From assembly GCF_014905095.1 (NCBI RefSeq), contig NZ_CP041165.1, forward strand, positions 372,001-436,000: a stretch of DNA of 64,000 nucleotides, written 5' to 3'. A program made the translations under genes and the position numbers. The DNA comes from Sulfurimonas marina. Lineage in GTDB: Bacteria; Campylobacterota; Campylobacteria; Campylobacterales; Sulfurimonadaceae. The first letter of the stretch is position 1. Each line of letters opens with the position of its first letter. Below the pieces are notes generated by a model. The model ran no database searches and was not told the origin of the DNA. It worked only from the letters and a program-made list of their open reading frames with translations. This document shows, piece after piece, positions 40,006 to 56,893 of the stretch.

Positions 40006-41057
40006 GAAGTCAGATAAAGAGCTATCTCGTCACTTAAGAGATACTCTTTATTAAAATATTTTCCCTCTTGAAAAATTAATTTTCCCTCTTGGACTAACAG
40101 GTCTGCTTTTTGAATCTCTTGCTTATCTAAAGTATTTTTATCAATTCCCACAATCGATCGAAGTCCCAAAAAGATTTTCTCTATTTTAATATCCTCATCA
40201 CTTAACTCTTCGGTATTGATATCAATCGGGTTTTGAATATATTTTTCTATATCTGGCTGAGGGTAATAGCGTTTGTTTGCTATTCTGCCGACTGCACCGG
40301 CACCAACACCCATATACTCCTCATACTCCCAGTATCCAATGTTGTGTACAGACCTGTATGTTCCGAAATTACTGATCTCATACTGAGAAAAGCCCCGTTT
40401 TTCGATCTCTTCAAAAAGCCATTGTGTAATCTCAAGCTGCTCTTTTGACATTTGTGGCTTACTCTCAAAAGCAGTTCCCTCTTCAATAGTTAAGGCATAA
40501 GCACTTAAATGGTTGATCGGAAGTGAAAAAGCAAGGTTCAGATCGTTTTGAAGCAGCTCTTTTGTATCACCAAGTGTTGCATAGATAAGATCAAGTGATA
40601 TATTTTCAAAACCCGTTTTTTTTGCATTTTTTACAGCTTCAATCGCTTGATTCGGATTGTGGGCACGGTTAAGCAGTTTGAGTTTTTTCTCATCAAAACT
40701 CTGTACCCCAAAACTGATACGATTAACTCCCAGTGCCCGCATCCCCTCAAGCCAATGCTTAGTTGCACTGTTAGGATTTGCCTCGGAAGTGATCTCAACA
40801 TCTTTTTTTAAGTAGGGTGATATAAGTTCAAAAATCTCTTTATAAAGTTCTGGTGAGACGGTTGAAGGTGTTCCCCCACCTATAAAAACAGACTTGATAC
40901 TCTCTTTTTTAGGCTTGCATCTTTTTAGTTCAAACTCCAGCTGTTTTTTTAGGGCTTTCATATACTCTTGTTTGAGATGAAACTTGTCTACATAAGAGTT
41001 AAAAGCACAGTAAGAACATTTGGAATCGCAAAAGGGGATATGAAAATAAAGTAGCAT
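40002..41057 (-). CDS. hemW: HemW-like radical SAM protein (heme chaperone family)
   Basis: A 351-aa radical SAM protein with Cys10, Cys14 and Cys17 in FHIPFCDSKCSYC. The HemW branch is supported by FIGGGTPSTVSPE near 69-81, RISFGVQSFDEKKLKLLNRAHN near 132-153 and HNIGYWEYEEYMGVGAGAVG near 230-250. The extra Cys of true coproporphyrinogen dehydrogenase HemN after the triad is replaced (CAFN), so heme transfer is more likely than decarboxylation. It starts 8 nt after AGAGGAA. Confidence 0.9.
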   Translation of the reverse strand: MLLYFHIPFCDSKCSYCAFNSYVDKFHLKQEYMKALKKQLEFELKRCKPKKESIKSVFIGGGTPSTVSPELYKEIFELISPYLKKDVEITSEANPNSATKHWLEGMRALGVNRISFGVQSFDEKKLKLLNRAHNPNQAIEAVKNAKKTGFENISLDLIYATLGDTKELLQNDLNLAFSLPINHLSAYALTIEEGTAFESKPQMSKEQLEITQWLFEEIEKRGFSQYEISNFGTYRSVHNIGYWEYEEYMGVGAGAVGRIANKRYYPQPDIEKYIQNPIDINTEELSDEDIKIEKIFLGLRSIVGIDKNTLDKQEIQKADLLVQEGKLIFQEGKYFNKEYLLSDEIALYLTS

Positions 41058-41093
41058 TGGATTCCTCTGAAGATATAAAGTTTTATAATGTGT

Positions 41094-41099
41094 ATTATA
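41094..41099 (-). promoter_or_regulatory. -10 element for hemW
   Basis: TATAAT on the minus strand lies 37 nt before the hemW ATG, in the divergent spacer with the hemerythrin gene. Confidence 0.45.
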
Positions 41100-41150
41100 T
41101 TAAGATTTACTTTAAGAAATTTGTTATTACACCTAAGATATGATAGTTAA

Positions 41151-43761
41151 ATGGATAAAAATATAGATATATTTGAAATATTTCCGTGGGATGCTAATTT
41201 TGAAACGGGAATAGAAAAAGTTGATGAGCAACATAAAAAACTTGTAGAGATTTTAAACCGTCTAGCTGCACACCTAGCCAGCCTCTCCAATATAGATGAA
41301 CTAAATGATATTTTTGATGAACTGGCAAATTATGCAGATTATCACTTTAAAACGGAAGAGGGTGTTTGGAGCCAATACTTTGAAAATGACGAGTGGTTCA
41401 GTGAACATGAAAAAACACACGGCTCTTTTATGGATGAAGTGGTCGCGATTAAAGAGAATAAAGAGAATAAAGAGTTTGATGAGGTGATCTATGAGATTGT
41501 CCTTTTCTTAGCACAATGGCTGGCTTACCATATTCTCGATACCGATAAGAGGATGGCAAAAGTTGTTTTAGAGATTGAAGCAGGACACTCTTTAGAGGAA
41601 GCAAAGAAGCAATCTAACGAGTTTATGAACGGCTCTATTAAAACACTCATCGATACAGTTCTTAAAATGTACAGTGATATCTCGACACGTACACTTGATT
41701 TGATGCGTGAAAAAGCACTGAGAATAAGAGCGGAAAAAGCACTGAAAAAGAGTGAAGAGAAGTGGAAGTTTATACTTGATAACAGCGATGAGAGTATTTG
41801 GGATTGCGATCTTAAAAAAGATCAGGCTTGTATCTCCAAAGAGGACTCGGTAGTTGATAAAGTTATTACAAACTCTTTAGAGAAGTTTGATAATTTTTCA
41901 CAAATTCATCCTGATGATATAGAAAGGGTGAGAAAGGACTTTTTAGCTCACTTAAAAGGTGAAACGGAGTTTTATTATAATAAGCATCGGGTCTTGCGAA
42001 AAGATGGAAGCTGGAACTGGATTTTAAGTCGTGGAAAAGTACTCAAGCGCAGTGAAGACGGGATGGCCGAGAGAATTATCGGTATCCATAGCGATATAAC
42101 TGAAAGGGAACTCTCATCAATTATCTATCAATACAGTTCTCAGGCGATGTTTATTTGTGATCAGGATAATAAAATAATTAGTATAAATCCTGCATTTACG
42201 GAGATTACACAATATACTCTTAAAGATGTCATTGGAAAAGATCCAAATATTTTAGCTTCAGGGGAGCTTGATGAAGAGTTTTATCAAAGAATGTGGTCCG
42301 ATCTCTTTAAGCACGATAGTTGGTCGGGTGAGGTTATTAACAGACGAAAAGATGGGGAACTCTACATTCAAGAGTTAAACATCAATGTAGTAAAAAATCC
42401 TCAGGGAAAAATAGACCATTATGTGGGGCTTTTTTCAGATATTAGTGAAAAGAAAAAATCTGAAGATATTATTATTAAACAAGCTAATTTTGATCCCTTG
42501 ACTGATCTGGCAAACCGTAAAATGTTCGAAAAACGTTTAGAAGAAGCGATCAGTCTCTCAAAAAAGAAATCAACTCCCTTTTGCAGTACTTTTTATTGAC
42601 CTAGATCATTTTAAAGATATTAACGATACTTTAGGTCATGTGGTAGGGGACTCTATTTTAATTCAAGTCGCAAATAGAATTAAAAAAGAGATAAGAGATA
42701 CAGATGTACTTTCAAGGTTTGGCGGTGATGAATTTACACTTTTACTTCCCAATGTTAAAAATACAACGGTAATCGATCGAATAGCACAGAATATTATAGA
42801 TGCGGTAAAAAAACCGTTTGAGATTCAAGAAAGAACACTTTATATATCTGCAAGCATCGGTATTACACTTTATCCTGATGATGGAAGAGACAAGTTAAGT
42901 TTGCTTCGAAATGCCGATCAGGCCATGTATCAGGCAAAGCATAGTGGAAGAAGTCAATTTCATTATTTTACAAGCTATATGCAAGAGTTGGCACAGAAAC
43001 GTCATGTAATGCTTAGTGATATGCATAAGGCGATTAAAGAGGGGCAATTTGAAGTTTATTATCAGCCGATTGTTGATACAAGAAGCGGTAAAGTTGTAAA
43101 AGCAGAAGCGTTAGCAAGGTGGAAGCATCCTAAAAACGGTGTAATCAGCCCTGCAGAGTTTATTCCGTTGGCAGAAGAGAGCGGGCTTATACTGGAGGTT
43201 GGAAGCTGGATATATAAAACAGCAGTTTCACAGGTTGCCAAGTGGAGAGAAGAGTATGACCCAGAGTTTAAAGTAAGTATCAATAAATCACCGATACAGT
43301 TTAAAGTCTCCCAAACGCTAGATGAGTGGATGTCACATATTGATGAGTCGGGCATAGACGGTACAAGTATTATTCTTGAGATCACCGAAGGTATATTGAT
43401 GGAAGAGGATGAACTTGTAAAGCAGAAGCTAATGACTTTTAGAGAAAAAGGGATCGAGGTTGCGATCGATGATTTTGGAACAGGATATTCCGCTTTATCA
43501 TATTTGAAAAAGTTTGATATAGATTATCTAAAAATAGATAAATCTTTTGTAGATAACGTAGCAACATCACAACAAGACAAAGTACTCTCAGAAGCGATGA
43601 TCGCGATGGCTCATAAACTTGATATTCAAGTGATTGCAGAGGGTGTTGAAGATGCAGAGCAAAAAGAGATATTAACAAATATGGGATGTGATTTTATTCA
43701 AGGGTACATATACTCTAAACCACTTCCTGCAAAAGAGTTCGAAAGAGTATTTTTAGCATAA
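41151..43761 (+). pseudogene. Hemerythrin-PAS-PAS-GGDEF-EAL protein with a frameshift
   Basis: A signalling protein of about 869 aa if repaired. It has a bacteriohemerythrin domain (residues 10-140; iron ligands His28, His65, Glu69, His86 or His90, His127, Asp132), two PAS domains (about 200-320 and 325-445), GGDEF (about 450-610) and EAL (about 620-870). The frame breaks at the T4 run 42579-42582: removing one T restores CCC TTT GCA GTA CTT, that is PFAVLFIDLDHF, the expected GGDEF start. Downstream, FGGDEF and EALARW with DDFGTGYSAL look intact. As written, the N-terminal product ends after 482 aa without an output domain. An O2-responsive c-di-GMP enzyme is inferred for the ancestor. Confidence 0.85.
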
Positions 43762-51344: not shown

Positions 51345-51733
51345 TATTCGTTCTCGTCAAGTGTTAAGCATACAGAATTGATGCAGTATCTCATCCCTGT
51401 CGGTTCAGGACCATCAGGAAAAACATGTCCTAAATGAGCGTCACATGATGCACATCTTACCTCTATACGAATCATTCCATGACTCATATCTTTATATTCA
51501 GTTACCGCATCTTCAATCGGTTCAAAATAGCTCGGCCAACCGGTTCCCGAATCAAATTTTGTAGAAGATTCAAAAAGCGGGGCATCACAACATACACATT
51601 TGTATACACCCTCATCTTTACAGTCGTAATATTTACCGGAAAAAGGTGCTTCTGTTCCATGCTCTCTACATACATAGAACGCTTCAGGAGTTAGTTGTTT
51701 TTTCCATTCATCTTTACTCTTGACTACTTTCAT
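51344..51733 (-). CDS. msrB: Peptide-methionine (R)-S-oxide reductase MsrB
   Basis: A 129-aa single-domain MsrB that repairs methionine-R-sulfoxide. Two zinc CxxC pairs are visible, CVCC near 46-49 and CASC near 94-97. The catalytic Cys is in GMRYCINS near 116, and [11 protein letters not shown] lies in the middle. No signal peptide is seen, so it is cytoplasmic, unlike many exported MsrAB proteins. It overlaps the cyclophilin gene by one base and the helicase-like gene upstream by 20 nt. Confidence 0.94.
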
Positions 51734-53219
51734 ACTTTTCCTTTAACAGCTCTATGATTGAACAAGAATCATCATAGAGAATATAAGCACTATTCGTGGC
51801 TAAATTAAAAGCATATTCTATCTGTTTTTCATTATATTCACATAAATCTAGCAATATAATATGTTTAGTAGAAAGTTCAAACATATCGTTGTAAGTTGCG
51901 AGTCTTAACTCTTCAAGATTTTGTTCTAAAAGTGTTTTTCCACCTTCAATATCTAAAGCATTATGTTCTATAAAGTATTCTAGATCTTCTTTGAGTTTTT
52001 GTTGATTTTGGGAATTGGAAACTATAAGAATATCGTTTGGTGAATTTTCTTGAAGAAGCTTTTGTACCAATTGCATTGTTTTAGCTAAAGGATATGTTTG
52101 TAAAAAATGATATTCTTTCGTTTGTTCCTCATCACTTGGCAATGCAAACTGAGTAGCTAGTTGCTCATCGCTAAGGTTTACAAACAGTGCTGTTTTACCT
52201 TTTTGAATATTTTTAAGATAATTGATAAATTGTTCGTTTAAAAGATTTGCATTATCACATATAATTAAGTCTGCAATTTGAAAGCTTTTTTTGAGTAGTG
52301 TAGTATCTACTTCAGATAACTCATTGATCATAGGTTTTTTTAATTTATGCAAGTGTTTATTTAGAAGCTCAAGCGGTGTAAGGAGCTCAATTGCATTCAT
52401 ATCAAACTCAATAATACCGTGTTCTATAATATCGAGCAGTTTTTTATAGGCAATATCACGTGCTAACGTTGTAGCTTTTATAATAATCACTTTTTGATGC
52501 TTCTTTTTAAACACTTCCATGATCGCTTTTAGAAGCAAGAGAGATGTCTGTCCACTTTGAAAGTTGACTGAGAGGTTGGAGAAATTATTTAACGGCGTAT
52601 TTAAAAACTCTATCTCTTGATCACTGCACAGAGTAAACGAACCATCCTCTTCAAGTTTACTATATTGTGTTAAAAGTGTTTCAAGTCCATCTCTGCTACG
52701 TTCCCCTAACGGAACTTTTTCTTCACTTTCAAGTTTTTTGAAAATATCGGATGTTTGGGAGTCACTAAATATGATCTTTTCTTTAGGAAGTAGTGTTTTA
52801 AATGAATCATCTAAATGCTCATACTCATCAGCACTTAAATTTTCCATTAGTAGGTAATTGTATATTTTTGGTCCGTCTGTATGGTTAATCTCATTAAACT
52901 TTCTCTTTATAAGCTCTTGTGTTTTGTCAAAAGCGAGTGTGTTACTTGCATGTTCTTGATTCTGAGCTTTTTCAATAACGGAGTTTTTAAGATCGTCAAA
53001 TGACCATTTTTTTATTTCAAAAAGATAGAGTCCACGTGTCTCATCAAAAAGCATAAGCTCTATATTGTAACTTTGTTTATGGAGATAAATATCGACGTTA
53101 GAAAATACTTTTAAATCACTGTTTTTTGCAAGAGATTTGATACGTTTGACTAAGATTGTATCGGGAACGACTAAGTCTGATTTGTTTTTTTGAAATAATG
53201 AGAAGAGATTAAAGTTCAT
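51714..53219 (-). CDS. Degenerate NERD plus SF1 helicase-like protein
   Basis: A 501-aa protein with no clear named family. The N-terminus resembles a NERD nuclease-related domain ([10 protein letters not shown] near 63-72, keeping Glu-x-Lys but lacking the usual preceding Asp). The rest has the spacing of a UvrD-like helicase, but the Walker A position reads FQSGQTS near 220-226 instead of GxGKT and the Walker B position reads [10 protein letters not shown] near 318-327 instead of DE. ATP hydrolysis is therefore unlikely. It starts 39 nt after the HU gene and overlaps msrB by 20 nt. A structural or nucleic-acid-binding role is possible. Confidence 0.7.
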
Positions 53220-53735: not shown

Positions 53736-53933
53736 ATTGCGTTTACTTATACTCTTAAAATATAGAGAATACGCGCTGTTTTTCATCTTATGGGTGCTTA
53801 GTTTGATATAAGTAAATACTCTTTTCTTAATTTTTTGTATTAATGTAAAAAATTGTTCAGAACGATTTTTAGAGTGAATTGACAAAAAAACATCTTCCAA
53901 AGCTTCTCTCTCTTTTTTAGTTAACGCTCCCAT
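53730..53933 (-). CDS. Small basic hypothetical protein in HTH operon
   Basis: A 67-aa basic, helical protein with no signal peptide or recognised domain. KIKKRVFTYIKLSTHKMKN in the second half is strongly cationic and could bind nucleic acid. Its ATG overlaps the stop of the upstream HTH gene by TAATG, so the two are co-translated. The function is unknown. Confidence 0.7.
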   Translation of the reverse strand: MGALTKKEREALEDVFLSIHSKNRSEQFFTLIQKIKKRVFTYIKLSTHKMKNSAYSLYFKSISKRNK

Positions 53934-54175
53934 TAAGCATCCTTTAGTTTATTGATTTTTCTTACAGCGCGAATAATCTCATCATCATCCAACATACCTA
54001 ACATCTTGATCACGGTTGCGGCAGCTTGCGGTTTTGCACGACCAAGTTTCCAATCTTGGTATGTGCGCATAGATATTCCTAAAGAGTTGGCCATATCTTT
54101 AAGAGATATCTTACGTCCATTGTTTTGTGATTCTACCGAGTTGTGAAGTATATTGAACAAGTCATCGATTTGCAT
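53933..54175 (-). CDS. XRE-like helix-turn-helix regulator
   Basis: An 80-aa protein with one HTH (ISLKDMANSLGISMRTYQDWKLGRAKP near 23-49), where GISMRTYQDWKLG is the recognition helix region. It is small and has no ligand domain. It is followed, with a TAATG overlap, by the 67-aa basic protein, a layout seen in some regulatory or toxin-antitoxin pairs. An extremely AT-rich region with two 13-bp direct repeats lies upstream and may be its own operator. The target is unknown. Confidence 0.78.
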   Translation of the reverse strand: MQIDDLFNILHNSVESQNNGRKISLKDMANSLGISMRTYQDWKLGRAKPQAAATVIKMLGMLDDDEIIRAVRKINKLKDA

Positions 54176-54343: not shown

Positions 54344-54376
54344 AAGCCTTCAAAGCATTTGATGCTTTGAAGGCTT
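54344..54376 (-). terminator. Strong Rho-independent terminator
   Basis: A 15-bp perfect stem (AAGCCTTCAAAGCAT / ATGCTTTGAAGGCTT) with a 3-nt loop ends, on the minus strand, in a run of eight T. It lies just after the stop of the coiled-coil gene at 54391. Confidence 0.9.
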
Positions 54377-54390
54377 AGAGATTTAAAAGA

Positions 54391-55083
54391 TTAGTTTAGA
54401 AGATCTGAATAGTCGTATTTTGAGAAATCTAGGTAGATTTTTCCGTTTTGTTTAATGATTCTTATATCGCTTCCGTAAGCACTTAAAAATCGTTTTTTAA
54501 TAATTTTTCTTTGTTGCGGCTCAATATCAAGGTTTTTAAGATACTCTTTGAGCTCTACAATTTTTGTCTCTTTCTTTTTATCAATTGGTTTGATAGTTTC
54601 GATCTCGTGAATAGTCTCATTTTCTCTTTCAATAGTTAGTTTAGTGTTGATAAGCTCTAGTATATTTTTGAGTTGCTCATCTTTTTTACTGTATACTTGT
54701 TCTATTTTACTCATCTCATCACGTAGCATCTGCTCTTTATCATCGATCAATTTATCAATTTTAGCTTCAAGATAGGCTATCTTGTCTTTAAGTTGCTGGT
54801 TCTCTTTTTGATATAAAGAGATAACCATAGATACCGTTGTCTTTGCTTTTGCAGGTGTAGGTGCATTATTGATTTGAGCTTGTTTTTTTTGCTGTACCTG
54901 CTGCTCTTTTTTCTCTTGATGAATCGCTTCACGCTTTTGAGGTTCAAGTGAACTTCTTGTAACTATAATATATGTAACACCGTTTTCTATGATGTAGTTG
55001 AGCTTTTTTGCTCTGAGTTTTGAGTTGATCATCTCTTTAGACATTTTGAAATGTTTTGCGTATTCATCTAAGGTAAGTCTCAT
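54391..55083 (-). CDS. Putative HTH and coiled-coil DNA-binding protein
   Basis: A 230-aa protein. Residues 1-45 (LTLDEYAKHFKMSKEMINSKLRAK...YIIENGVTYIIV) look like an excisionase/MerR-type winged HTH. A Gln/Lys-rich linker (about 50-80) and a long coiled coil (about 90-155) follow, then a conserved-looking basic C-terminal region (about 180-230) with QQRKIIKKRFLSAYGSDIRI. It starts 16 nt after the cyclase-like gene and is the last gene before a strong terminator. It may be a nucleoid- or plasmid-partition-like protein. The function is unknown. Confidence 0.65.
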   Translation of the reverse strand: MRLTLDEYAKHFKMSKEMINSKLRAKKLNYIIENGVTYIIVTRSSLEPQKREAIHQEKKEQQVQQKKQAQINNAPTPAKAKTTVSMVISLYQKENQQLKDKIAYLEAKIDKLIDDKEQMLRDEMSKIEQVYSKKDEQLKNILELINTKLTIERENETIHEIETIKPIDKKKETKIVELKEYLKNLDIEPQQRKIIKKRFLSAYGSDIRIIKQNGKIYLDFSKYDYSDLLN

Positions 55084-55099
55084 AATATCCCTTATGTAG

Positions 55100-55732
55100 T
55101 TATAAAAAATCGATTTTTGGTGGAGTAATTATACCCGATTTTCTGAGCCAAACTAAGTAGCCTTTTTTCTCATTTTGGTGTTTATCGTGAAAAGTATATG
55201 CTTTTGAGCGTTTAAATTCTCTCTCAATCAATATCTTTTCAAAATCTCGGTGATAGCGTAAAAATTTTTTCAGTTCATTATATGCTGTGTCTGAAATCAT
55301 GACTGTTGAAATTGTAAAGTTTTTAAACTCAATGAAACGTGAACAGTCATTAAGCCCGTCACCGATATAGTTTTCATTACCTAATATATCTGTAAAACGG
55401 CTGACACCACCAGTATGTACAGCTATCTTTATACCTTGAAAATATGGGTATTTTTTAGAGATTTGTTCTGAGAAATGGTTAAAACTAAGACCCAAAAAAG
55501 TTCCGTAACCCTTTAGCTTTGGATCGAGGATGCAGTAAAATCCGTCTCCTGTTGATACAAAACTCATTATAAGTGTTGAAAGGGGCATTTTAGAACTTAC
55601 CAACATTTTTTCAATTACACGTCTATAGCTTTTGGTTAAAAAGGTAATGATCTCCAACTGTTGCTTTGAAGTGAGCGTGGAAAAGTTTATGATGTCTACT
55701 AAAATGATATCGGTGATTATCTCTTGTTTCAT
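55100..55732 (-). CDS. Class III nucleotidyl cyclase-like protein
   Basis: A 210-aa soluble protein with a single adenylate/guanylate cyclase-like catalytic domain. Both metal aspartates appear present: Asp13 in ILVDIINFS and Asp63 in STGDGFYCIL. IKIAVHTGGV (101-110) and NYIGDGLNDCSRF (121-133) match the later motifs, giving the transition-state Asn128 and Arg132. By eye, the positions that choose the base are Val59 and Asn119 instead of the Lys and Asp of adenylate cyclases, so substrate and activity are uncertain. No sensor domain is fused. It is paired with the coiled-coil HTH gene 16 nt downstream and divergent from fba. Confidence 0.7.
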   Translation of the reverse strand: MKQEIITDIILVDIINFSTLTSKQQLEIITFLTKSYRRVIEKMLVSSKMPLSTLIMSFVSTGDGFYCILDPKLKGYGTFLGLSFNHFSEQISKKYPYFQGIKIAVHTGGVSRFTDILGNENYIGDGLNDCSRFIEFKNFTISTVMISDTAYNELKKFLRYHRDFEKILIEREFKRSKAYTFHDKHQNEKKGYLVWLRKSGIITPPKIDFL

Positions 55733-55810: not shown

Positions 55811-56893
55811 ATGAGTACTGGTATATTAGATATTGTAAAACCTGGTGTGTTATTTGGTGATGATGTTACAAAAGTTTATGAGCATGCAAAAAAGACTGGA
55901 TTTGCTATCCCGGCTGTAAACGTTGTAAATACTGATTCGATCAATGGTGTTTTAGAAGCTGCAAAAAAAGCAAACTCTCCTGTGATTATTCAGTTTAGTA
56001 ACGGTGGCGGTTCTTACTTTGCAGGAAAAGGTTTAAGTAATGAAAATGAACAAGCTGCAATCGCAGGAACTATAGCGGGTGCTATGTATGTTCACATGAT
56101 GGCTGAGACTTACGGTGTAGCTGTTATTCTTCATACTGACCATGCTGCAAGAAAACTGCTTCCATGGATCGATGCTCTTTTAAGTACAGGTGAGGTACAT
56201 TACCAAGCATACGGTAAACCGCTTTTCTCTTCACATATGTTAGATCTTTCAGAAGAGCCTTTAGAGGAAAACATTGCTACATGTAAAACTTACCTAGAGC
56301 GTATGAGCAAAATCGGTATGCATATCGAGATCGAGCTTGGTGTTACAGGTGGAGAAGAGGACGGTGTTGATAATACAAATATTGACAATGCTCTTCTTTA
56401 TACACAACCAGAGGAAGTTGCATATGCATATGAAGAGTTAGGAAAAATCTCTCCAAACTTTACAATTGCAGCATCATTTGGAAATGTTCACGGTGTATAC
56501 AAACCGGGGAATGTTGTTTTAACTCCAAAAATCTTAGACAATTCTCAAAAATATATAGCAGAAAAATTCAGTACATCATCTGACAAACCGGTTAACTTTG
56601 TATTCCACGGTGGTTCAGGTTCTCTTCCAGAAGAGATCTCTGAGGCTATCTCATACGGTGTTATTAAAATGAATATCGATACAGATACACAATGGGCTAC
56701 TTGGAATGGTGTTAGAGAATATGTTGCTAAAAACCATGATTACTTACAAGGTCAGATCGGAAACCCAGAGGGTGAAGATAAACCAAATAAAAAATACTAT
56801 GATCCAAGAAAATGGTTACGTGCAGGTCAAGAGAGTTTAGTTGAACGTGTAATTGAAGCGTTCAAAGACCTTAACGCTATGGATAGAAACTAA
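55811..56893 (+). CDS. fba: Fructose-bisphosphate aldolase, class II
   Basis: A 360-aa zinc-dependent aldolase cleaving fructose 1,6-bisphosphate. The zinc ligand His segment VILHTDHAARK near 104-114, ELGVTGGEEDGVDN near 176-189 and VFHGGSGS near 263-270 are diagnostic of class IIA aldolases. It complements gapA, pgk and tpiA of the 20-kb cluster in glycolysis or gluconeogenesis. Its stop overlaps the convergent small membrane protein gene by 4 nt. Confidence 0.96.
   Translation: MSTGILDIVKPGVLFGDDVTKVYEHAKKTGFAIPAVNVVNTDSINGVLEAAKKANSPVIIQFSNGGGSYFAGKGLSNENEQAAIAGTIAGAMYVHMMAETYGVAVILHTDHAARKLLPWIDALLSTGEVHYQAYGKPLFSSHMLDLSEEPLEENIATCKTYLERMSKIGMHIEIELGVTGGEEDGVDNTNIDNALLYTQPEEVAYAYEELGKISPNFTIAASFGNVHGVYKPGNVVLTPKILDNSQKYIAEKFSTSSDKPVNFVFHGGSGSLPEEISEAISYGVIKMNIDTDTQWATWNGVREYVAKNHDYLQGQIGNPEGEDKPNKKYYDPRKWLRAGQESLVERVIEAFKDLNAMDRN

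Follow-up and report, generated by a model that had tools for sequence, protein, structure and literature searches.

We describe here a pair of adjacent genes from Sulfurimonas marina, one encoding a small protein (CYC) that belongs to a real subfamily of nucleotidyl cyclases, unnamed in the libraries that we searched, and the other encoding a predicted coiled-coil protein with a winged-helix-turn-helix-like (winged-HTH-like) start (PART). The pair is real and old, and the CYC subfamily within it occurs almost only in one bacterial family, which by record titles is the Sulfurimonadaceae. We regard it as nearly certain, on a structural model, that CYC has the class III cyclase fold and, on its sequence, as probable that it is catalytically competent. 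A functional tie between CYC and PART seems to us evenly balanced, and the reading that we prefer, in which CYC is a catalytically active stand-alone cyclase and places an additional, nucleotide-dependent control on PART, is put forward tentatively, at somewhat below an even chance.

Organization of the locus

The pair lies in what we call the window, the whole stretch of 64,000 nucleotides that was analyzed, which comes from a genome assembled as one contig of 2.26 Mb. The features at the site are these:

55811..56893, plus strand: class II fructose-bisphosphate aldolase gene, divergent from the pair (PF01116, E 3e-84)
55100..55732, minus strand: CYC, a 210-aa stand-alone class III nucleotidyl cyclase-like protein (from its ORF, fold, residues and selection)
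55084..55099, minus strand: 16-nt gap between CYC and PART, which are on the same strand
54391..55083, minus strand: PART, 230 aa, with a winged-HTH-like start, a long helix (residues 84-154) and a small C-terminal domain (about residues 173-230)
54344..54376, minus strand: intrinsic terminator directly behind PART, with a 15-bp stem, a 3-nt loop and a U-run
53933..54175, minus strand: 80-aa HTH-like protein of cluster c5 (HTH_19, E 2.5e-4, below the cut-off)

The coordinates of the two genes and the gap between them were given correctly in the original prediction, as the open reading frames show, and CYC and PART probably form an operon and would be co-transcribed. The strong terminator said to close the pair also stands, with a hairpin that folds at -21.8 kcal/mol (z -6.5) and is equalled by none of 200 shuffles. 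The terminator scan as such returned one site and the shuffles 0.7 (sd 1.0), so the site count alone carries little weight, and a promoter scan returned 12 sites against 9.6 (sd 3.2) in shuffles, which is no excess. Values of dN/dS are 0.02-0.16 for CYC (four close pairs) and 0.06-0.11 for PART (one close pair); these low values, and the presence of the pair in 79 of 80 related loci, indicate that both are real genes, and the CYC values mean strong purifying selection where the gene is kept.

The gene for the cluster c5 protein commonly comes next at the CYC-PART site across related loci. At 51714-53219 the window also encodes a protein of 501 aa that diverges fast and matches NERD weakly (E 0.006); its mean p-distance of 0.68 is at the top of the nine families compared at the site.

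Fold and active site of CYC

The class III cyclase-like domain that had been assigned to CYC is borne out by structure prediction, which finds a cyclase fold. The AlphaFold2 model, built with 57 aligned sequences, has a pLDDT of 91.4 and a pTM of 0.88. A Foldseek search of PDB structures with this model gives 142 matches at E <=0.001, and class III cyclases head them (best E 3.3e-8). The best 50 matches in the VIA-align structural alignment (Z 15.2-18.4 over 155-189 residues, rmsd 2.2-3.1) are all class III cyclases, guanylyl, adenylyl and uridylate, and the Anabaena uridylate cyclase (8jsz) is found among the structural matches with a Z of 15.3.

Sequence comparison places CYC at a distance from the described families. 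No Pfam, NCBIfam, PADLOC or PHROGs model claims it in a sequence search (best E 0.07), and the profile search for the guanylate_cyc domain (PF00211) that had been suggested as a check leaves the CYC of the window unclaimed, with one of 25 family members scanned being listed, at E 0.11. Against PDB sequences, neither the CYC protein by itself nor a profile did better than E 0.29. There is, nonetheless, a sequence bridge in a 384-aa protein from another Campylobacterota family (L251:7566-8720), which alone among CYC relatives passes the PF00211 cut-off (E 6e-5) and which matches CYC proteins with a best E of 5e-10. When the CYC profile is compared with that of 20 ordinary class III domains, the E is 1.6e-4 but the probability only 51.

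Residue conservation was assessed in 105 sequences, which give 85 distinct aligned rows. The active-site positions in the window are as follows:

55694-55696, minus strand: metal Asp D13
55544-55546, minus strand: metal Asp D63
55370-55372, minus strand: base position N121
55349-55351, minus strand: transition-state N128
55337-55339, minus strand: transition-state R132

The original prediction was right that both metal Asp residues are present and that the base residues are atypical. Among distinct homologues the metal Asp residues are invariant wherever they are covered (D13 in 83 of 83, D63 in 84 of 84), and so are both transition-state residues (N128 and R132, each in 85 of 85), which align with the catalytic Asn and Arg of ordinary class III domains in the profile comparison. 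The same comparison misplaced the TGDG hairpin, and D63 is therefore assigned as the second metal Asp from its TGDG motif and from the strand-turn-strand that is predicted there.

The base positions depart from the usual pattern. Position 59, four residues before D63 and a Lys in adenylyl cyclases, is Ile in 60 homologues and Val in 24, position 121, seven before the catalytic Asn, is Asn in all 85, and T61 is invariant; the CYC of the window has V59, T61 and N121. The two corresponding base positions in 20 ordinary class III domains, taken from this genome and related ones, hold Lys in every case and Thr in nearly every case. The CYC pair of I/V59 and N121 differs both from Lys with Asp or Thr and from Glu with Cys, the last being the base-selecting pair of guanylyl cyclases, although such pairs mark known adenylyl and guanylyl cyclase specificity and not membership of the superfamily. 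The ATP-specifying pair of Ma1120, in the part of PMC4215837 drawn on here, is K101 and D157. For PycC proteins, the sections cited of PMC11224242 report the base residues Y50/D94/R97, F60/K104/F109 and F100/R142/Q144, and the CYC counterparts L11, V59, T61, G64 and Y66, which we matched ourselves by distance from the metal Asp, fit none of the three sets. Because the base positions fit no specificity set compared, the activity of CYC cannot be read from them. Asn is able to read uracil in other proteins, according to PMC11224242, and we speculate by analogy that N121 might do so in CYC.

Distribution and descent of CYC and PART

CYC matches were found in 29 of 99 related genomes. Within the genus it is present in 24 of 60 genomes, intact or contig-split (one is split over two contigs), and two further genomes, G003 and G010, hold wrecks with stops; it also occurs in other families, in G063 and G079, and a weak partial match in G097 (E 6e-4) was disregarded. 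A phylum sample gave matches in 26 of 347 genomes, 21 of them from the family at E <1e-100, with G063 and the distant G128 in addition and three weak matches (E about 4e-4) that were disregarded. In public genomes we collected 80 CYC loci (of 87), with record titles that are mostly Sulfurimonas and Sulfuricurvum; the remaining titles are broader (Campylobacterales, Helicobacteraceae), with one 'Arcobacter' and one Campylobacteraceae. A sequence search found no copy in plasmids or phages, and a search of IMG/VR returned 44 stretches of which none was confirmed. Among the matches listed by a literature search we found nothing on a class III nucleotidyl cyclase in Sulfurimonas or related genera, which does not prove absence.

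A PART frame follows CYC in 79 of the 80 loci, the exception being L140, and gene order around the pair is alike in most of them (locus L068 is cut by a contig end). The left neighbor is the class II aldolase gene in most Sulfurimonas-titled loci, as in the window, and pyruvate kinase in Sulfuricurvum-titled loci and some others. The two genes usually lie within 30 nt of each other or overlap; in a mostly Sulfuricurvum-titled group they are about 55-140 nt apart, and the spacing is larger in L132 and L141, both of which have a broken CYC frame. These last two loci come from one assembly (Faavne_M6_B10), and their broken frames reflect either decay or assembly error. One CYC homologue (L026:1138-2136, also L161:14493-15491) is 332 aa long, with a long C-terminal extension that is coiled-coil-like by eye; it has no Pfam match and adjoins a UDP-GlcNAc 2-epimerase gene (PF02350).

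PART is the more widespread of the two genes, being found in 56 of the 60 genus genomes, with weaker matches in three more that are its paralogue. In 32 genus genomes PART has no intact CYC beside it (in one of these, G057, PART is at a contig end, but a search of the whole genome also found no CYC). Since CYC is found in 24 of the 60, PART does not need CYC, and presence and absence reject PART as an exclusive CYC partner. Thus the pairing that the original prediction proposed is conserved well outside this genome but is not exclusive. On a PART tree the presence of CYC needs 11 changes, and the two wrecks are sisters next to the CYC-bearing G029; this tree was built by a quick method, leaves 21 of its 57 inner forks open and contains some long branches. 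In both wrecks (L172 in G010 and L173 in G003) a CYC remnant with several stops lies between the aldolase gene and an intact PART. The simplest reading is frequent loss of CYC from an ancestral pair, and a few of the absences may be gaps because some genomes are incomplete. Only one PART column (188, E versus K) separates genomes with and without CYC at a threshold of 70%. The Pearson correlation between CYC distances and PART distances is 0.84, the second highest of eight CYC pairings; the seven other neighbors give 0.61-0.88, with the NERD-like neighbor above it at 0.88 and a methyltransferase close to it at 0.82. A special co-evolution of CYC with PART is therefore unsupported, the value being within the range for other neighbors.

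The N-terminal HTH and the coiled coil that had been proposed for the neighbor of CYC have counterparts in the PART model (pLDDT 84, pTM 0.33), in a weakly matched winged-HTH-like start and a 71-residue helix, followed by the C-terminal domain. The best Foldseek E is 0.13 and the HTH matches are weak (Z 4-5), those of the start (residues 1 to about 44-49) being to phage Xis (Z 5.2) and BldC (Z 4.7). The C-terminal domain is barely covered by the structural search, with five weak matches (Z 3.2-3.4), to F-112 and to four cohesin SMC1A/RAD21-C entries. In residues 173-230 the elements are predicted to follow an order like that of the N-terminus of PART itself, as a second winged-HTH end might show, but comparing the profiles of both ends lent this no support (probability 0.2). 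PART probably binds DNA as a dimer.

The paralogue, PART2 (G000:C1:40979-41611), is encoded in this genome 9 nt behind yajQ (PF04461, E 8e-53). The yajQ gene adjoins PART2 in 10 of 11 family loci and is 960 nt away in the remaining one (the arrangement was noted at L162:3970-5115, corresponding to G000:C1 about 40469-41614, and across L181-L191). The adjacency was rejected as a phylum-wide rule, being seen in none of 19 other-family loci with flanks of up to 1.5 kb. It is suggestive that in the Sulfurimonadaceae both paralogues appear to be encoded behind a nucleotide-type protein. The portions of PMC4199771 referred to here describe a Xanthomonas YajQ that binds c-di-GMP and contacts an HTH regulator, and other YajQ proteins that prefer ATP or GTP.

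Function of the pair and comparison with known systems

In the mechanism that we tentatively favor, CYC would work as a soluble class III cyclase in a head-to-tail homodimer, which agrees with the presence of all four catalytic residues in a single CYC chain. D13 and D63 would bind two metals, N128 and R132 would stabilize the transition state, and the pocket formed by I/V59, T61 and N121 would pick the nucleotide. PART, with its coiled coil and its winged-HTH-like end, would act as a dimer on DNA, and CYC would add nucleotide-dependent control to it, by way of the CYC product or by touching PART directly; PART would also function where CYC is missing. For the original suggestion that the partner could sense a nucleotide signal or regulate the cyclase, which we keep as a conjecture, the one further hint is the position of PART2 behind yajQ.

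The alternative that survives best, which we think possible though doubtful, is that CYC is active but that its product acts on general CRP-like receptors or elsewhere, the adjacency to PART being inherited gene order. Potential receptors are common, with cNMP_binding domains in 60 of 61 genomes and five matches in this one, and PART occurring without CYC, the largely syntenic neighborhood and a CYC-PART co-divergence inside the range of other neighbors all agree with it. However, the pairing persists while the left neighbor varies by group between aldolase and pyruvate kinase, and cNMP_binding matches number 66 in 17 genomes with CYC and 82 in 21 without, in a count that covered 38 of the 60 genus genomes. 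Both come to 3.9 per genome, so no receptor number tracks CYC.

It is unlikely, in our view, that CYC is a catalytically silent, NTP-binding pseudo-cyclase that touches PART in the manner of YajQ and its HTH partner in Xanthomonas. The base positions that fit no substrate set compared and the location of PART2 behind yajQ are what such a protein might lead one to expect, but pseudo-enzymes usually lose some catalytic residues, and all four in CYC are invariant wherever covered.

We find it very unlikely that CYC belongs to motility and tunes flagellar assembly. A FapA-like gene directly follows PART in many genomes, either without CYC or in addition to it: it is behind PART in 13 of 17 CYC-less loci examined (a cluster of 29 includes a number of CYC loci with it near PART), and a strong orthologue is present in 34 of the 60 genus genomes. 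There is none at the site in the window, however, and the two genes do not co-occur beyond expectation; 12 genomes have both, 11 CYC only, 22 the FapA-like gene only and 8 neither (n=53), which leans to avoidance (Fisher p 0.15), and an association of CYC with the FapA-like gene was accordingly set aside. FliM, present in 89 of 99 genomes, cannot discriminate such a role. The CYC homologue at L140, a Campylobacteraceae-titled locus that lacks PART, closely precedes a flagellin-like gene, flaG, fliD and fliS (L140:5935-12189). A link of CYC to motility is conceivable. A representative FapA-like gene behind PART is at L066:7331-8998 (FapA_N E 2.5e-4, below the cut-off, one protein scanned).

A role of the pair in phage defense as a Pycsar-like system, in which PART would be the effector, is highly improbable, and by the features tested CYC is not a Pycsar member. 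CYC resembles PycC, as described in the cited sections of PMC11224242, in being a stand-alone class III domain with both Asp residues, the Anabaena uridylate cyclase is among its structural matches, and in another family a distant homologue is encoded directly behind a ThsB-like TIR gene. However, the N-terminal helix that those sections give as a PycC hallmark is missing before strand 1 of the CYC model, which opens with a strand at residues 5-14, and the PycC clades have aromatic and charged or Gln residues where CYC has L11 and T61. No PADLOC family matches CYC up to E 10. No TIR, cNMP-binding or transmembrane effector gene adjoins it in the window, the neighbors being PART and ordinary cellular genes, and the site is largely syntenic with a descent like that of its neighbors, no plasmid, phage or IMG/VR copy having been found. 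Together, that TIR gene (PF08937, E 1.3e-15) and the gene for the distant homologue, the 384-aa protein whose class III domain is distantly CYC-like (L251:6970-8720 for both), make what may be a defense cassette.

If CYC is active, as we prefer to think, it would represent an unannotated class III cyclase subfamily, passed on vertically at a stable place in the chromosome of widespread sulfur-oxidizing bacteria. The literature cited here links the cyclic pyrimidine nucleotides of bacteria mainly to phage defense, and a cyclase that has a non-purine pocket and a housekeeping role would, if true, widen their roles beyond it. We give only a slim chance to the full form of this idea, in which CYC and PART would be a two-protein non-defense signal circuit, with a vertically inherited cyclase making a nucleotide other than cAMP or cGMP (N121 would suit uracil), PART as its DNA-binding receptor lacking a CRP-type domain, and PART2 with yajQ as a second circuit of like design. 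Related species with an intact, wrecked or missing CYC beside the same PART gene provide a natural contrast.

Compared with known systems, CYC shares with class III nucleotidyl cyclases (PF00211) the predicted fold, the two metal Asp residues and the transition-state Asn and Arg, and differs from them in its base positions (I/V and N) and its poor profile match. The DUF2652 cyclase-like proteins, in the part of PMC4886424 cited, are like CYC small, single-domain, class III-like and outside the main profile; no DUF2652 match is reported among the Pfam families listed for CYC. BusR, which the cited portions of PMC8517857 present as a c-di-AMP-sensing repressor with a coiled-coil ruler, is like PART in layout only, with a DNA-binding end, a coiled coil and a C-terminal domain. 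Its coiled coil (7oz3) aligns with that of PART (Z 5.2) and is the only part that aligns, and BusR is there assigned to the GntR family with an RCK_C sensor, a domain not seen in PART, whose C-terminal domain the search barely covered. YajQ (PF04461) is no cyclase, CYC has no match to that family, and the partner of YajQ in the sections used of PMC4199771, XC_2801, is a LysR regulator; yet YajQ with this HTH partner provides an example of a nucleotide-binding protein that acts with a DNA-binding protein, as is proposed here for CYC and PART.
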